Notes under the pieces: generated by a model
Told to the model about the DNA's origin: nothing
The model's database searches: none
The model's input: the letters and a program-made list of their open reading frames with translations, nothing else
Source of the DNA: Pseudomonadales bacterium
Lineage (GTDB): Bacteria > Pseudomonadota > Gammaproteobacteria > Pseudomonadales > DC-out160
Reading direction: 5' to 3'
DNA: 64,000 nucleotides
Assembly (NCBI GenBank): GCA_019090455.1
Contig: JAHRWA010000034.1
Span: forward strand, 1-64,000
Shown here: piece by piece, positions 20,407 through 27,413 of the stretch
Layout of the letters: the number at the start of each line of letters is the position of its first letter
Numbering within the stretch: position 1 is the stretch's first letter
Translations under genes and position numbers: made by a program

Positions 20407-20575
20407 TGATCGACTGGTTCTAATTTTCATTATTGGCGGGTTTTTTATTTCCCCTGTCATAATGGAATGGGTTAGTGAAGGGGGGACGGCCTGGTATCGA
20501 CCATATCTTGCCTGGATCTCCATTATCGCAATAGTCGCTTGGATTACGAGAAGTCGGGATTTAGATGGTTTTTAG
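20399..20575 (+). CDS. cbrX: CbrX-like small membrane protein (58 aa), translationally coupled to gluQ and cbrA
   Basis: A short open frame missed by simple length cut-offs. It encodes 58 residues: MYNDRLVLIFIIGGFFISP, a short loop with WYRP, then LAWISIIAIVAWI and a basic tail RSRDLDGF. There are two hydrophobic helices, so it is probably an integral membrane hairpin protein. It overlaps the gluQ stop by 8 bp and the cbrA start by 11 bp, the arrangement expected for translational coupling. Pseudomonads encode a small protein called CbrX at this position upstream of and overlapping cbrA. The symbol rests on synteny, size and hydrophobicity, not on a search. Confidence 0.75.
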   Translation: MYNDRLVLIFIIGGFFISPVIMEWVSEGGTAWYRPYLAWISIIAIVAWITRSRDLDGF

Positions 20576-23500
20576 TCTTTCCCATTTATTCTTTTTCGGC
20601 TTTGGTTACCTAGTCCTTCTGTTTCTCATAGCAGACATGACAGAACGCGGTTACATCCCCGCTAAAATCGTTCGTCACCCTATCGTTTATGTTCTTTCCA
20701 TTGGCGTCTACGCCAGTGCTTGGGCAATATACGGTAGCGTGGGTTTCGCTTATCAATACGGCTACAACTTCTTAACGTATTATCTCGGTTTAGCGGGGGC
20801 TTTTTTGCTCGCACCCATTTTTCTCGGACCGGTTCTACGCCTCTCACAAACATATCAACTAGGCTCACTGGCTGATCTTCTTGCCTATCGATACCGAAGC
20901 AAATGGGCGGGATCGCTGGTAACGATTATTATGTTGTTGGGAGTCATGCCTCTATTAGCATTGCAAATTCAAGCGGTAGCCGATTCAGTTCATATCCTCA
21001 ATCAAGAAACAACACCCGCCACCTTTGCGCAGGTATTTGTTCTATTTATGCTAATGTTTGCCGTACTTTTTGGTGCGCGGCATTTCCCTGGCCGGGAGAA
21101 GCACGAAGGACTGGTGATGGCGATCGCCTTCGAATCACTCGTCAAACTTATTCTAATCGGTGTTATCGCGTGGTTCTCAGTCTATGAAGTCTTTGGCAGT
21201 TTCGATGAACTGGAGGATTGGCTCGCCGACAGACCTCAAGCGTTGGACCTTCTTTATACCCCTCTAGATCACGGCCCTTGGCGCAGTCTCATTCTGGCTT
21301 TCTTTTCCGCTGCGGTGGTCATGCCTCACGTATACCACATGGCCTTTACCGAAAACCTGAATCCAAGAGCCCTTATCACAGCAAGCTGGGGAGTCCCTTT
21401 GTATTTGTTTTTCTGCGCACTCGCGGTGCCCCTTATTTTATGGGCTGCATTAAAAGTACAGGCCCCCACTGACCCGGAATATTTTACATTGGGTCTTGCG
21501 ATTGCCACGCAGTCACCCAAGCTCGCCATGGTTATTTTTGTCGCAGGCATTTCTGCCGCCAGTGGAATTATGATCGTGACCACATTAGCGTTAGCATCAA
21601 TGGTGCAAAATCATTTGGTCTTACCGCTCTACCAACCCAGCGCAAAACAAAACATCTATAGCTGGCTGCTATGGACTCGGCGTATTCTTATCGCCACCAT
21701 ACTTGCCATTAGCTACCTTTTTTATCAAGCGTTGGATGGTGCCCACGACCTTTCAGAATTAGGTTTACTGGCATTTGTTGCCACCTTGCAATTTACGCCA
21801 GGATTGATGGGCGTGATGTTTTGGCCTGGTGGTAATAAGAACGGATTTATTGCGGGCCTCTCGGTTGGGTTTTTTATTTGGTTATTTGGAATGTTACTCC
21901 CTGTTTTAGCCAGCGTAGAAGCATTGGGACTCAGTATTTTTGACCTGGGCTTCAGTCCCACAGTTGATAATTGGCAAGGGCCAGCAATGCTGGCAACACT
22001 GTTGAACAGCATAATATTTGTTGTCGTCTCTATTTTTACCAAGCAATCTCCGGCAGAAAAAGCAGCAGCTGCCACTTGTATAGTCGACAATTTACGTCGA
22101 CCTTATCGCTGGGAGATTTCTGTACGTAGCGTAAAAGAGTTTACTGCTCAACTTGCCCAACCATTGGGCTCCAGCACGGCAAAAAGAGAAGTCGAACTTG
22201 CGCTCCAAGACTTGTCCATGAGCATGGAAGAAACACGCCCCTTTTCGCTACGCCGCTTACGCGACCGAGTTGAAACAAATTTATCGGGCCTACTCGGCCC
22301 CTCGGTTGCGCAAGAGATAATTGACCAATACCTTCCCTATAAAACACACACTGAACAAACGGGATCTGAAGACATACACTTTATTGAAAACCGGCTTGAA
22401 GAATACCGGAACAAATTAACTGGACTCGCCGGCGAGCTTGATCATTTACGTCGTTTCCACCGGCAAATACTGCATGATTTACCCATGGGCGTTTGCTCAT
22501 TGGGGCACGACAACGAGATTTTAGGCTGGAACAAATCAATTGAAAACCTCACCGGCATATCCGCCAATGAAATCATGGGCTCAAACATTAACGAAATTGA
22601 CGACCCTTGGCGCCAACTTATCGTCGATTTCGTTGATGGCGACACCTTACATCACCAACAAAAAGAAATAGAGATTAACGGTATTAGCCATTGGATCAGC
22701 CTGCATAAAGCCGCCGTTGATCACGAAGCTGAACCAGGCGCGGACACGAGCACTGAGACGGCAGAATCCGATGAAGCTAAATCAGACTCAACTGTTTTAT
22801 CACAATCTCCTCCCGCGATCAGAGGCCGACTCGTCGTGGTCATCGAGGATGTCACAGAGATTCAATTGCTAGAGGCAAAATTAACCCACAGTGAACGCCT
22901 AGCCTCCATTGGCCGCTTAGCCGCAGGAGTCGCACACGAAATTGGTAATCCCATCACCGGCATTGACTGCTTAGCACAAGAGCTACGAGCCGAATCCAAA
23001 GACACTGAGGTCTCCTCAGTGGCGGAGCAAATTTTAGGACAAACAAAAAGGGTTTCCAGAATAGTCCAATCTTTGATGACTTTTTCGCGCTCAGGCGTCC
23101 ACAGCCAACAAGAGTATATAGCGGTGGACCTGACCGCTTGCATTCAGGAATCCATCGACTTAGTCCTATTGGCCCCTAACGCTAACGAACTGATTTTTAA
23201 AAACCACTGCTCAAATCATTTATATGCTTTAGGTGACTCGCAACGATTGATGCAGGTATTCATCAATCTACTCACAAACGCCAGAGATGCCTCCGCACTG
23301 GGCGATACGATATCGATTACCGATTCCTGCACCGAGCAGATGGTCAGCATTCATTTTATAGACCACGGTTGCGGTATACCTAAAAATGTTCAGGAAGAAA
23401 TATTTGAGCCCTTCGTCACAACAAAGGATCCCGGCAAAGGCACCGGCTTAGGCTTGGCGTTGGCCTACAGTATTGTCAAAGATCATTATGGAAAAATTAG

Positions 23501-23657
23501 CATAACCTCACCGCTCAATCCGCCAGTAACAAAAGAAAACAAACCTCAAATGTCTGATAATTCATCGGATACAATGGGAACCAGCGGTAACCAGGGGACT
23601 AAGGTAACAATTAACTTACCCAGGTGTTACCCTGAGAACCAAGGTAGCAGTTCTTAA
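20565..23657 (+). CDS. cbrA: Sensor histidine kinase CbrA with SLC5-type transporter domain
   Basis: A 1030-residue hybrid of a sodium/solute symporter-like domain (about 13 membrane helices, residues 1-490), a linker with a STAC-type region (about 505-600), a PAS domain (about 630-740), and a kinase core. The H-box is GVAHEIGNPITG (His near residue 790). The catalytic domain shows the N-box NLLTNARDAS and the G-box GKGTGLGLAL near 957. CbrA senses carbon/nitrogen status, possibly through histidine uptake, and phosphorylates CbrB. The order cbrX-cbrA-cbrB between gluQ and pcnB matches Pseudomonas. An Asp/Glu/Ser-rich insert interrupts the end of the PAS domain (about 725-750). Confidence 0.93.
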   Translation: MVFSLSHLFFFGFGYLVLLFLIADMTERGYIPAKIVRHPIVYVLSIGVYASAWAIYGSVGFAYQYGYNFLTYYLGLAGAFLLAPIFLGPVLRLSQTYQLGSLADLLAYRYRSKWAGSLVTIIMLLGVMPLLALQIQAVADSVHILNQETTPATFAQVFVLFMLMFAVLFGARHFPGREKHEGLVMAIAFESLVKLILIGVIAWFSVYEVFGSFDELEDWLADRPQALDLLYTPLDHGPWRSLILAFFSAAVVMPHVYHMAFTENLNPRALITASWGVPLYLFFCALAVPLILWAALKVQAPTDPEYFTLGLAIATQSPKLAMVIFVAGISAASGIMIVTTLALASMVQNHLVLPLYQPSAKQNIYSWLLWTRRILIATILAISYLFYQALDGAHDLSELGLLAFVATLQFTPGLMGVMFWPGGNKNGFIAGLSVGFFIWLFGMLLPVLASVEALGLSIFDLGFSPTVDNWQGPAMLATLLNSIIFVVVSIFTKQSPAEKAAAATCIVDNLRRPYRWEISVRSVKEFTAQLAQPLGSSTAKREVELALQDLSMSMEETRPFSLRRLRDRVETNLSGLLGPSVAQEIIDQYLPYKTHTEQTGSEDIHFIENRLEEYRNKLTGLAGELDHLRRFHRQILHDLPMGVCSLGHDNEILGWNKSIENLTGISANEIMGSNINEIDDPWRQLIVDFVDGDTLHHQQKEIEINGISHWISLHKAAVDHEAEPGADTSTETAESDEAKSDSTVLSQSPPAIRGRLVVVIEDVTEIQLLEAKLTHSERLASIGRLAAGVAHEIGNPITGIDCLAQELRAESKDTEVSSVAEQILGQTKRVSRIVQSLMTFSRSGVHSQQEYIAVDLTACIQESIDLVLLAPNANELIFKNHCSNHLYALGDSQRLMQVFINLLTNARDASALGDTISITDSCTEQMVSIHFIDHGCGIPKNVQEEIFEPFVTTKDPGKGTGLGLALAYSIVKDHYGKISITSPLNPPVTKENKPQMSDNSSDTMGTSGNQGTKVTINLPRCYPENQGSSS

Positions 23658-23694: not shown

Positions 23695-25152
23695 ATGAAT
23701 CGAGTTTTAGTTGTTGAAGATGAAAGCATTATTCGCGCCGCGCTTAAGCGCTTATTGGAGCGTAACAATTATCAAGTCAATGAAGCCGGATCGGTAGGGG
23801 AAGCACTCACTAATCACACCCTTTCCGATTTCGACCTCATCATCACCGACCTTCGACTTCCTGGTGAACCCGGCACAGCACTCATTGAACGAGCAGGCGA
23901 CGTACCTGTGCTACTCATGACCAGTTATGCCAGCCTCAAATCCGCTGTTGATTCCATCAAAATGGGCGCAGCCGACTATATCGCAAAACCCTTCGATCAC
24001 GACGAAATGCTCTCCACTGTCGGGCGCATCATTAGCGATCACCACAACATAATTCAAAAAGCAAACGTTGCAAATGACACCGACAGCAACATGCCACTGT
24101 CTACCCAAACCAACACACAGAACACACTCCTTCGCGCTGAAACCATAACTTCTGAATCTATAACTTCAGAACAGGGCAACATGATCGGACAGTGCCGCGA
24201 AATGAAAGAACTCTATCGGCGTATCGATAAAGTCGCACCCACTGACACCACTGTACTCATTTTGGGTGAATCCGGCACAGGTAAAGAACTCGTCGCCAAA
24301 GCGCTCCATCAAAGCAGCTTAAGAAATTCTGGACCTCTTATTTCAGTTAACTGCGCAGCTATCCCGGAATCACTGATTGAATCCGAGCTATTTGGACATG
24401 AAAAAGGTGCCTTTACGGGGGCTAATACAACCCGCAAGGGCCTAGTCGAAGCTGCTGATGGTGGCTCACTCTTTCTCGATGAAATTGGCGAACTCCCTGT
24501 AGAAGCTCAAGCTAGGTTACTGCGATTAATCCAAGAGAAAGAGGTCAGACGACTCGGCTCAATTCAATCAAAAAAGATAGATGTTCGCCTTATTGCTGCA
24601 ACCCATAGAGACTTAAAGGCGCTGGCCGCATCGGGTGGATTTCGCGAAGACCTCTATTACCGTCTACACGTAGTGGAGCTTAAACTACCGCCATTAAGAG
24701 CCCGAGAAGAAGACATCCTCATATTAGCCACTCACTTGCTAGACAGCACCTGCTTACGTTTAAACAAACCCTCTATGCACTTTAGCGAAGAAGCCCGCTC
24801 AGCCATAAATGCTTACAAATGGCCAGGCAATGTAAGGGAAATGGAAAATGCGATTGAGCGTGCGATCATTCTGACAGACGATAGCGAGATTACACTCGAC
24901 CTATTAGCCATTGATGTCGACATGAGCAAAGTTGGCCTTACCGCCTCTTTTAAATCCGGTAACTCAGCAAACGACTTAAACGACCCACAAGAAGATCTAT
25001 CCCTGGAAGATTATTTCCAACAATTTGTACTAGAACACCAAGATCAAATGACAGAAACCGAATTAGCTCAAAAGTTAGGCGTTAGTCGAAAATGCCTCTG
25101 GGAACGACGACAACGCCTAGGCATACCCCGCAAAAAAGCCGCTGCAAGATAA
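23695..25152 (+). CDS. cbrB: Sigma-54-dependent response regulator CbrB (NtrC family)
   Basis: A 485-residue NtrC-type activator. The receiver domain (1-120) has the phospho-acceptor Asp near residue 52 ([10 protein letters not shown]) and Lys in IAKPFD. A Ser/Thr-rich linker contains a 5-codon duplication ([10 protein letters not shown]). The AAA+ domain has GESGTGKEL (near 190), the sigma-54 contact GAFTGA (near 239) and the Walker B region [12 protein letters not shown] Fis-type helix-turn-helix ends the protein ([24 protein letters not shown]). It should activate the sigma-54 promoter of the CrcZ-like RNA immediately downstream. The gap to cbrA is 37 bp. Confidence 0.94.
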
Positions 25153-25202
25153 TGTTACCTTGCTACCCAAGTGGTAACCCAGTCATGGCCATTTGCGTAA
25201 CA
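25153..25202. promoter_or_regulatory. CbrB-type upstream activator half-sites before the CrcZ-like RNA
   Basis: Directly after the cbrB stop codon lie TGTTACC (25153-25159), GGTAAC (25173-25178) and GTAACA (25197-25202). The first two form a perfect 6-bp inverted repeat (GTTACC-N13-GGTAAC). TGTTAC paired with GTAACA is the kind of half-site described for CbrB at crcZ promoters, from memory. The distance to the sigma-54 promoter (about 80-130 bp) suits an enhancer. Confidence 0.75.
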
Positions 25203-25283
25203 AATATTTGACTACTGACCACCGAATTAATCCCATACTCCATAACCTACTGTTTATTAAGCAAATAATATTATTGTAAAAAG

Positions 25284-25299
25284 TGGCATACATCCTGCT
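25284..25299 (+). promoter_or_regulatory. Sigma-54 promoter of the CrcZ-like RNA
   Basis: TGGCATACATCCTGCT matches the sigma-54 consensus with GG at -24 and GC at -12 at the exact spacing. With the CbrB-like half-sites 80-130 bp upstream, transcription should start near 25310 and be CbrB-dependent. Confidence 0.85.
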
Positions 25300-25309
25300 A
25301 TGTACTACT

Positions 25310-25811
25310 TGCTAATAACAAAAACTAAAAATAGCCAACTGTCGAAAACAAAAATAAAAACAACCAACGACAGATAACATTTGTTAATAAAAACAATAAT
25401 AAAAACAATAAAGTATTAGGGGAAGTATTAAGTAGTGACATCATCCGGACGATGATGGAAAGATAAAAAATCGGACTTTTAGACAAGGCTTGTATCTAAT
25501 TAAAATAATAAGCAGATCTTGATCCTCTGGTAACAGAGGGCTTTCGACACTTAATTCCTCAAAAGCAAACAATAATAAAAATACGTCGGCACAGTAACGG
25601 ATAGGCGGGGGTTTAATCTCCCTCGTCTATCTCTAAAAACAAAACTAAAAACAACAACAATAACAAATTGTAAAATTAGTGCTTTGAACCAAATATTTTA
25701 TAAAAATATACAAATATACAAATATAAAAATAATAGAAGAATAGGACTAATTGGGTATTTCAAATCAGCACATCCTAAAAAGGGAAAACCGAAAGGTTTT
25801 CCCTTTTTTAC
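25310..25811 (+). ncRNA. crcZ: CrcZ-like small regulatory RNA (Hfq/Crc sponge)
   Basis: The 893-bp gap between cbrB and pcnB is where Pseudomonas encodes CrcZ. The predicted transcript is about 500 nt, from the sigma-54 promoter to a 14-bp perfect terminator stem (25777-25808, GAAA loop, T run to about 25809). It carries at least five A-rich clusters of the AANAANAA (CA motif) kind: about 25314-25334, 25346-25368, 25386-25412, 25563-25584 and 25633-25670. These are separated by small hairpins such as CCTCTG-GTAA-CAGAGG (25524-25539). In Pseudomonas such motifs sequester Hfq with Crc and relieve catabolite repression. Primary sequence conservation was not tested. The case rests on position, promoter, motifs and terminator together. 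Confidence 0.85.
25777..25811 (+). terminator. Intrinsic terminator of the CrcZ-like RNA
   Basis: AAAAAGGGAAAACC and GGTTTTCCCTTTTT form a 14-bp perfect stem closed by a GAAA tetraloop, followed by the end of the T run. Confidence 0.93.
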
Positions 25812-26045
25812 ACCCCTCTCGTGCTAAACCTACGTTAAACTCGTGTTAAACCTGGCTTTTCCTCGCCCATGTTGCGTTTATATGCAATATATCGTTTATG
25901 ACCTGACTAAAAACGCCTAAAATAGTAATTATAGTGAGTCGCTCTCATTAGCAAGGCTAACTAACACCCCAACTTTACATTCATTAAAAAACTCAGCACC
26001 TTATCGACTAGCAGTACCAAGATAAGCGCTGCACCCACAGGTGAA

Positions 26046-27413
26046 ATGACCTCAATTCAAGAATACACAGCAGAAGATGCAGGCGTAACACGCAAAGACA
26101 TCAGTCCCAGCGCCTTAAAAGTGATAGATAAACTACAAAAAGCGGGATTTGATTCCTACCTCGTAGGCGGCTGCGTGCGAGATTTGATGCTAGGCAAAAT
26201 ACCCAAAGATTTCGATATTGCCACAGCCGCTCATCCTGAAGAGATTGATAGTCTCTTTAACAATTGCCGATTAATCGGCAGGCGCTTCCGTCTAGCGCAC
26301 ATTCGTTACGGCCGAGAGATTATTGAGGTGGCTACCTTTCGCGGCCATCACGGCAATACCTCTAAAACCTCCGAAAAGGGCATGATACTCCGGGACAATG
26401 TTTACGGCACAGTGGAAGAAGACGCTATACGACGCGATCTCACCATCAACGCGCTGTATTACGATCCAAACAAAAAGCGCGACAACCGTACCGGCGTTAT
26501 TCGAGACTTCATGAACAGCACCGAAGACATCCAAAAGCGCAAAATACGGCTAATAGGTGATCCTGAAGTACGTTACAAAGAAGACCCAGTACGTATGCTG
26601 CGAGCAGTGCGATTTGCCGCCAAGTTAGACTTCACTATCGAAAAGCACAGCAAAGATGCCATTTATCGGCTGGCCAACCACTTAAGAGAAATCCCTGCTG
26701 CTCGTTTATTTGAAGAAATTCAAAAGCTGTTTGTTTGTGGCCATGCCTTCAATGCCTTTCAGCAGCTGGACGACTATCAATTGCTGGATATTTTGTTTCC
26801 TTTGTCAGTTCAATATTACCGCTCAGATAAAATAAATCGCAGCCTCATAGATCAGGCACTCATCAATACCGATCAACGCCTCAGTGACGGAAAATATGTC
26901 ACCCCGTCTTTTCTGCTAGCCGTACTCTTATGGGCGCCTATGCAAGAAAAGAAAGCCCTCTACATACAGCACAAAGAACACCCTGACTATCAGGCAATGA
27001 ATCAAGCTGCCCAATACGTCATCCTCAAACAAACTAAAGCGAGTTCCATCCCTAAACGATACTCTACCCCCATGCGTGAGATGTGGGATCTACAAGCTCG
27101 CCTAGCAAAACGACATGGCAATCGTGCCGACGCATTACATCAACACCCCCGGTTTAGAGCCTCCTATGATTTTCTATTACTAAGAGAACAATCCGGTGAA
27201 ATAGAACCGGGCCTAGGAGAATGGTGGACGAAGTACCAAGAGGTGGACACAGAAACAAAACAGTCCATGGTCAGAGATCTAAAACAAAAACCGAAAAAAC
27301 GAAAGCGCTCTCCACGCAAACCCAGGAGCGATTCATCTCAAAACAATGAATCCAATAGCCTAAATAATGAGGCCAATAGTACTAGCAGTGACGACCAGCC
27401 TCTTGAGCCATAA
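26046..27413 (+). CDS. pcnB: Poly(A) polymerase I
   Basis: A 455-residue class II nucleotidyltransferase. The head domain begins near residue 38 with YLVGGCVRDLMLG and KDFDIAT, whose aspartates bind the catalytic metals. RRDLTINALYYD and the EDPVRMLRAVRFAAKL helix follow. The C-terminal part is very basic (KQKPKKRKRSPRKPRSDSS) and ends with an Asn/Ser-rich 7-codon duplication. It adds 3' poly(A) tails to RNA and so promotes decay. Poly(A) polymerase is distinguished from the CCA enzyme by the basic tail and larger size; a separate cca gene is at 58.7 kb. It is followed by folK, as in Pseudomonas. Confidence 0.93.
   Translation: MTSIQEYTAEDAGVTRKDISPSALKVIDKLQKAGFDSYLVGGCVRDLMLGKIPKDFDIATAAHPEEIDSLFNNCRLIGRRFRLAHIRYGREIIEVATFRGHHGNTSKTSEKGMILRDNVYGTVEEDAIRRDLTINALYYDPNKKRDNRTGVIRDFMNSTEDIQKRKIRLIGDPEVRYKEDPVRMLRAVRFAAKLDFTIEKHSKDAIYRLANHLREIPAARLFEEIQKLFVCGHAFNAFQQLDDYQLLDILFPLSVQYYRSDKINRSLIDQALINTDQRLSDGKYVTPSFLLAVLLWAPMQEKKALYIQHKEHPDYQAMNQAAQYVILKQTKASSIPKRYSTPMREMWDLQARLAKRHGNRADALHQHPRFRASYDFLLLREQSGEIEPGLGEWWTKYQEVDTETKQSMVRDLKQKPKKRKRSPRKPRSDSSQNNESNSLNNEANSTSSDDQPLEP

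Follow-up and report, generated by a model that had tools for sequence, protein, structure and literature searches.

The 893-bp gap between cbrB and pcnB in a Pseudomonadales genome very probably encodes a CrcZ-type decoy RNA (probability about 0.83, judging from sequence) that would be induced by CbrB through a sigma-54 promoter, titrate Hfq alone and work like CrcZ. The window, that is, the whole stretch of DNA analyzed here (64,000 nucleotides of contig JAHRWA010000034.1), belongs to a 5.55-Mb genome in 106 contigs, 98% complete and placed by GTDB in the order Pseudomonadales. The collection surveyed includes one other genome of its family, and the nearest named record by CbrB is the MAG Pseudomonadales bacterium NORP220, at 78% identity. 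The main surprise is that this genome and several related families possess Hfq but seem to lack a Crc of the known kind. This is an apparent case of a complete CrcZ-type unit outside Pseudomonadaceae, without Crc. It separates two things that are usually studied jointly, namely, titration of Hfq by RNA and the help provided by Crc. The observations from sequence comprise the unit, its conservation, its kept triplet code, the gene for Hfq and, at the thresholds used, no catalytically altered Crc.

In the accessible parts of the respective articles, CbrAB is described as exclusive to Pseudomonads or Pseudomonadaceae (PMC6296734, PMC8871633), the cbrA-cbrB-crcZ arrangement as confined to Pseudomonas and Azotobacter (PMC8871633), and Crc, in a structural paper, as Pseudomonad-specific (PMC9890229). 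The accessible parts of PMC8871633 and PMC6890931 do not report CrcZ outside Pseudomonadaceae, and those of PMC13022988, PMC5715377, and PMC9100948 do not mention a CrcZ-type unit outside this family. In the open-access literature, we found no report of CrcZ in Marinobacter, Oceanospirillales, Alcanivorax, or Cellvibrio, for which earlier reports may exist, and, in the article parts accessible, no relevant one in Halomonas.

The genes of the locus all lie on the + strand, in the order cbrA, cbrB, gap (25153-26045), pcnB, and the length of the gap is as given in an earlier reading made from the letters alone (hereafter, the sequence-only reading). The names cbrA and cbrB are based on similarity to the Pseudomonas genes and on gene order: the CbrA of the window shares about 51-58% identity with its counterparts in Pseudomonas and other relatives, its CbrB is about 61-63% identical to Pseudomonas CbrB, and, among the NCBIfam models shown, none scored above its cut-off for either protein. 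Pfam finds no transporter domain in the window CbrA, and the SLC5 transporter part is named only after known CbrA. The predicted RNA lies between cbrB and pcnB, on the strand of both, as a member of the CrcZ type should. The features are as follows.

20565-23657, + strand: cbrA, sensor kinase (Pfam HATPase_c, HisKA, PAS)
23695-25152, + strand: cbrB, response regulator with REC and sigma-54 activation domains (Pfam Response_reg, Sigma54_activat, AAA_lid_14)
25153-25158, + strand: predicted CbrB subsite F1, TGTTAC, immediately 3' of the cbrB stop
25174-25179, + strand: predicted CbrB subsite R1, GTAACC (5/6 match), 21 bp from F1, present in the sister species
25197-25202, + strand: predicted CbrB subsite R2, GTAACA, 23 bp from R1, present in the sister species
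25284-25299, + strand: predicted sigma-54 promoter, TGGCATACATCCTGCT (GG-N10-GC), by consensus score
25310-25809, + strand: predicted CrcZ-like non-coding RNA, about 500 nt, from promoter to terminator, with evidence from fold, triplet phase, and covariation
25314-25325, + strand: A-R-N run 1, 4 triplets
25347-25364, + strand: A-R-N run 2, 6 triplets
25386-25412, + strand: A-R-N run 3, 9 triplets
25439-25457, + strand: hairpin (helix 1) with four compensatory pairs relative to the sister species
25523-25540, + strand: hairpin (helix 2) kept in the sister species, one pair altered on one side
25568-25582, + strand: A-R-N run 4, 5 triplets
25600-25631, + strand: long hairpin (helix 3) with two compensatory pairs relative to the sister species
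25647-25667, + strand: A-R-N run 5, 7 triplets, without an aligned counterpart in the sister sequence
25726-25740, + strand: A-R-N run 6, 5 triplets, the only aligned run without phase bias
25777-25809, + strand: predicted intrinsic terminator (14-bp stem, GAAA loop, T tract), kept in the sister species
26046-27413, + strand: pcnB, poly(A) polymerase, flanking marker of the locus (TIGR01942, 505 bits)

The regulatory DNA follows the known layout closely. According to the accessible part of PMC6296734, crcZ of Pseudomonas putida has one forward and two reverse CbrB subsites (F1-R1-R2) 20-25 bp apart; the steps of 21 and 23 bp in the window fit this published spacing. As in a typical CrcZ unit, the subsites are located upstream of a GG-N10-GC promoter, with F1 131 bp away from it, and the +1 near 25310 is placed by its spacing to the sigma-54 site. 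The sequence-only reading had pointed to this promoter and its correct spacing, both of which are borne out, and to inverted half-sites at the cbrB stop codon; F1 and R1 hold up, and the third site, R2, had been overlooked. None of 3000 dinucleotide shuffles of the gap combined a sigma-54 score of at least 9 with CbrB sites (at most 1 mismatch, 100-160 bp upstream). The entire genome contains 18 exact TGGCAYRNNNNNTGCW sigma-54-consensus sites; the CbrB sites match with 1 mismatch at the window site and with 5-7 at the other 17, and there are 5 long A-R-N runs downstream of the window site compared to 0 or 1 at the others. CrcY and CrcX are RNAs similar to CrcZ; with the full arrangement at 1 of the 18 sites, the pattern yields one such gene, and thus no second, CrcY- or CrcX-like copy in this genome. 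Sigma-70-like promoters number 5 in the gap against 2.8 expected. In P. putida, an IHF site lies in the interval from the CbrB sites to the promoter, and IHF helps crcZ, per the accessible part of PMC6296734; IHF-like sites show no excess in the locus, with 12 one-mismatch matches against 9.5 expected from shuffles. As a separate observation, the stretch matched by the Rfam family P36 (RF01679), an entry for a Pseudomonas sRNA, includes the three subsites F1, R1, and R2 that precede crcZ in 4 of 4 loci (6442-6502 in L025, 6480-6540 in L065, 2243-2303 in L153, and 6419-6478 in L021); this family might represent crcZ enhancer DNA instead of an RNA.

The predicted transcript folds more stably than its shuffles (z = -6.6). 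The longest + strand ORF starting within it encodes 47 aa from a TTG start and overruns the terminator, so that a non-coding RNA is the simplest reading. A span of about 500 nt with at least five motif-rich clusters had been proposed; the sequence contains six A-R-N runs of at least 4 triplets. Five runs in the 500 nt have at least 5 triplets, whereas dinucleotide shuffles average 0.68 such runs and in no case (0 of 200) equaled that count; the unit accordingly carries several A-R-N motifs above chance. The 14-bp, GNRA-capped terminator described earlier is indeed present, as a GAAA-capped hairpin with a T tract; read as a 9-bp stem, GGGAAAACC/GGTTTTCCC, with six T behind it, it fits the usual form, and it is kept in the sister species. 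A pattern scan listed no terminator in the gap; the overlap of the T run with the 3' arm of the stem is the probable reason.

Units of this kind are common in the order. A CbrA homolog (E <= 1e-120) is encoded in 264 of 390 Pseudomonadales genomes, representing 102 of 142 genera. We surveyed 62 genomes from 55 genera, namely, 60 hand-picked CbrA matches (best listed scores first, about one per genus), the window genome, and its sister; this sample represents only genomes with a well-scoring CbrA, and 126 of the 390 had no CbrA match at the threshold. A unit was called given a sigma-54 score of at least 9/12, CbrB sites with at most 4/18 mismatches at 100-160 bp, and at least one following A-R-N run of 5. 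CrcZ-type units were called in 43 of these 62 genomes of the GTDB order and in 0 of 2480 shuffled gaps; outside Pseudomonadaceae, a Ketobacter MAG (L016) and Gilvimarinus xylanilyticus (L082) are among the named genomes that carry one. No unit was called in the other 19, of which 10 bear Crc and at least two (L121, L178) are cut by contig ends. In nine genomes from the families f38, f47, f29, and f6 (L157 (G103), L170 (G258), L138, L149, L147, L154, L167, L133, and L171), the cbrB-pcnB gap contains 2-4 tandem CrcZ-like units, each with its own predicted CbrB sites and sigma-54 promoter. Family f43 (L139, L158, L159, L162, L166) keeps cbrAB-pcnB and, in some members, CbrB-like sites; none of the five genomes has a called unit or Crc, and three of the five encode relatives that are only distant and are catalytically intact. 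Across the class, a CbrA homolog at E <= 1e-80 was found in 30 of 274 genomes, 27 of them from other orders. Among 20 other-order loci examined, 19 have a cbrB-like gene (one merely 34% identical), and none of these 19 has a CrcZ-type unit. These loci (L340-L359) contain cbrA-cbrB-like pairs with no adjoining pcnB in the stretch examined and no RNA unit.

The window genome encodes Hfq (97 aa) and two PF03372 proteins at E <= 1e-5. One of these, a 257-aa protein (L181), is encoded between rph and pyrE, the same place where G093, a genome of the Pseudomonas-like family f21, has Crc. It scores 322 bits against the Neisseria AP endonuclease NExo (2jc5) versus 267 bits against P. aeruginosa Crc, and 273 bits with TIGR00633 (cut-off 99). 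In the alignment, all eight active-site columns examined are as in AP endonucleases, and the catalytic Asp/Asn/Asp/His are present as D148, N150, D220, and H246; of the four catalytic residues named in the accessible part of PMC3662782, P. aeruginosa Crc retains only two. The second PF03372 protein matches neither the NExo-like nor the Crc query, and no Crc with an altered active site was found in the window genome, the sole match to these queries being the catalytically intact protein.

Among the 62 surveyed genomes, 40 encode a Crc with an altered active site beside pyrE; in 7, including the two species of the window's family, the protein next to rph and/or pyrE is intact; 6 encode an intact relative at other locations only; and 9 show no match to the L181 protein at E <= 1e-35. 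In 5 of these 9, the Crc query at E <= 1e-5 detects distant matches (24-30% identity), all of which keep the catalytic residues. Several genomes (L186, L187, and L189 of f47; L193 and L194 of f9; L195 and L196 of f30) have Crc beside pyrE and a second, intact relative elsewhere. In the phylogenetic tree, 39 of the 40 Crc proteins (L212, a 27-residue fragment, was omitted) group in a single clade (support 100) that excludes the L181 protein. In 29 loci from other gammaproteobacterial orders, taken as the top-scoring among 57 genomes outside the order that matched an intact query, a choice that favors intact proteins, the covered part of the AP-endonuclease protein is always intact (28 are complete and 1 is cut at the start), and pyrE lies within 1.5 kb of its gene in 16 of the 29. 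The unit was called in 13 of 22 genomes without Crc versus 30 of 40 with Crc. The Crc-less families divide into those with units (f1, 2/2; f17, 2/2; f25, 1/1; f28, 4/4; f33, 1/1; f44, 3/4) and those where none was called (f35, 0/2; f43, 0/5; f18, 0/1). The single-contig genome G065 (genus code g54) is Crc-less and has the unit.

These data bear on the possibility that the protein at the rph/pyrE locus combines DNA repair with Hfq co-repression, making the window genome the host of an ordinary Hfq/Crc/CrcZ system. The genomic place that it shares with crc and its 44% identity to Pseudomonas-type Crc over 255 residues are compatible with such a dual role. We nevertheless consider it improbable: its eight active-site columns all agree with those of NExo and of 28 of the 29 outgroup proteins (the 29th is cut), the protein is outside the Crc clade, and G065, G150, G213 (f28), and G033 (f33) have the unit without a match to the L181 protein at E <= 1e-35; distant, catalytically intact relatives were found in just two of these four genomes, G150 and G213. 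Given that a Crc of the known kind seems to be missing from the window genome, titration by the RNA would act on Hfq alone. A Phe at the Tyr25 position of the window Hfq was considered as a mark of Crc loss and ruled out since many Crc-bearing relatives also have Phe25. At another position, among Hfq loci L252-L281, all 16 proteins read from Crc-less basal families have Tyr42, and the remaining 14 have Phe42.

Conservation was assessed primarily against the sister species (G001, CbrB 82% identical), which has the same CrcZ-type unit. The two sequences are identical at 307 of 422 compared bases in the RNA versus 109 of 224 in the spacer after the terminator. Within the A-R-N runs of the window, 4 of 54 bases at positions 1-2 and 11 of 25 at N are changed (p 3e-4). 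Over 14 species pairs, the phase bias is significant (p < 0.05) in 23 of 28 direction tests and lacks significance in 5. A comparison of adenines alone, which controls for base composition and counts both directions of each pair, gives changes of 74/543 at positions 1-2, 35/79 at N, and 302/753 elsewhere in the RNA for four pairs counted as Crc-less (L016 and L018 being assigned via family f28), and 80/613, 26/65, and 491/1175, respectively, for six pairs counted as Crc-bearing (L021 and L065 being assigned as Pseudomonas). Because the aligner may favor the triplet register and the two directions of a pair are not independent, what this comparison establishes most safely is that both species of a pair maintain the A-R-N periodicity at corresponding places, and constraint on individual sites less so. 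Retention of A and R with drift of N, alike in Crc-less and Crc-bearing lineages, is as expected for binding to the distal face of Hfq, which reads A-R-N (PMC9890229, accessible part); in P. aeruginosa CrcZ, AAN triplets are located at the Hfq peaks (PMC6890931, accessible part). Four hairpins are fully paired in both the window and the sister RNA. Both sides changed in 6 of 39 chosen pairs, against 0-1 in slid controls, and 6 was reached in 7 of 500 letter shuffles, with the proviso that the structure was picked from the two-sequence fold of the same pair, a choice that favors covariation.

The conserved hairpins that accompany the A-R-N runs could also belong to a CbrB-controlled sRNA that pairs with mRNAs in the classical Hfq-dependent manner, with the runs as a mere Hfq handle; the terminator fits this as well, a U tract being a usual handle for the proximal face of Hfq (PMC9890229, accessible part). 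Six A-R-N runs would exceed the need of one handle, and its counterpart in Pseudomonas is a decoy (PMC4063720, accessible part), so we assign this explanation a low probability. Least plausible of all is that the gap is mainly a long pcnB leader or a spacer with a leftover promoter and no functional sRNA, as might be imagined from AT-rich intergenic DNA in which Rfam is silent and the pattern scan lists no terminator, given that the terminator hairpin, the covarying hairpins, and triplets that keep A and R but not N are all conserved in the sister species, and that identity drops behind the terminator.

The preferred reading, a decoy RNA that acts on Hfq, implies the following sequence of events, modeled on Pseudomonas. 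Under poor carbon supply, CbrA would phosphorylate CbrB, and phosphorylated CbrB would bind F1-R1-R2 and drive the sigma-54 promoter. The resulting RNA of about 500 nt would present its A-R-N runs between hairpins and load Hfq hexamers via their distal faces, presumably freeing mRNAs whose ribosome-binding sites are covered by Hfq. High-affinity binding of CrcZ to Hfq is established in P. aeruginosa (PMC4063720, accessible part).

The distribution of Crc raises the question of the order in which the system was assembled. In a tree of CbrB+PcnB with other orders as the outgroup (built without the long-branch outgroup CbrB rows L354 and L355; the CbrB trees also lack L349, where no cbrB was found, and L358, at 34% identity), 17 Crc-less rows (f1, f17, f25, f28, f33, f35, f43) fall on one side, with support 89/91, and 45 rows, including all 40 with Crc, on the other, with support 96/30. 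This split, together with Tyr42 in Hfq and the intact gene beside pyrE in the outgroups, fits a decoy older than Crc. Tentatively, and at somewhat less than even odds, we suggest that the Pseudomonadales ancestor titrated Hfq alone; that Crc arose later, in one branch, when the pyrE-adjacent AP endonuclease lost its active site in place and became an Hfq co-repressor; and that the family of the window keeps the older system of two parts. In an AU test, a tree with the Crc-bearing f38 as the first branch was not rejected (p-AU 0.617); because that tree is equally good, the 17-row set may instead have lost Crc, and we do not claim the order of events as shown. Crc-less species, for example, those of the family that includes Ketobacter, are natural test cases for the contribution of Crc, and the assembly order CbrAB, then decoy, then Crc becomes testable.

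The closest known system is CrcZ of Pseudomonas (RF01675), which shares with the window the cbrB-pcnB locus, the F1-R1-R2 subsites, a sigma-54 promoter at a similar distance, and several A-R-N runs. Unlike the window RNA, it is recognized by Rfam, spans 398 model positions versus about 500 nt predicted here, and has different hairpins; furthermore, the host of the window unit is outside Pseudomonadaceae and seemingly lacks Crc. The covariance search with the CrcZ model, which had been proposed as a check, did not recognize the locus: the best score was 12.6 bits (E 0.87) against a gathering score of 95, and the whole window gave no Rfam hit at the gathering score and no usable one at a loose threshold. 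The same model matches 5 of 10 control loci (L021, L025, L065, L019, L153), which represent three named Pseudomonas, one Pseudomonadaceae MAG, and, with L153, family f21, and it is silent in the Ketobacter, Gilvimarinus, sister-species, G025, and G065 loci. Ten weak matches elsewhere in the window genome, none at the locus, were discarded, 9 of 14 control genomes being matched too. Thus, the sequence-only reading of a divergent CrcZ, longer than that of Pseudomonas and with its own hairpins, in a bacterium that is probably not Pseudomonas, is supported by the shared locus, regulatory DNA, and A-R-N code combined with an unmatched Rfam model; the RNA is a positional counterpart of CrcZ, and we infer that it is a functional one, although not a member by the Rfam model. 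The NExo/exodeoxyribonuclease III family (2jc5; TIGR00633) is where the L181 protein belongs, but this protein occupies the place of crc in Pseudomonas. Compared with Hfq-Crc catabolite repression in Pseudomonas and Azotobacter, the window genome has CbrAB, Hfq, and the decoy RNA gene, with an AP-endonuclease-like protein at the locus where the known system has a catalytically altered Crc. Decoy RNAs of the CsrB/RsmZ type carry repeated protein-binding motifs, GGA for CsrA/RsmA, and titrate a translational regulator. The window RNA would share with them the logic of titration by a repeated motif and differ in the motif, the locus, and the regulator, with A-R-N triplets for Hfq.
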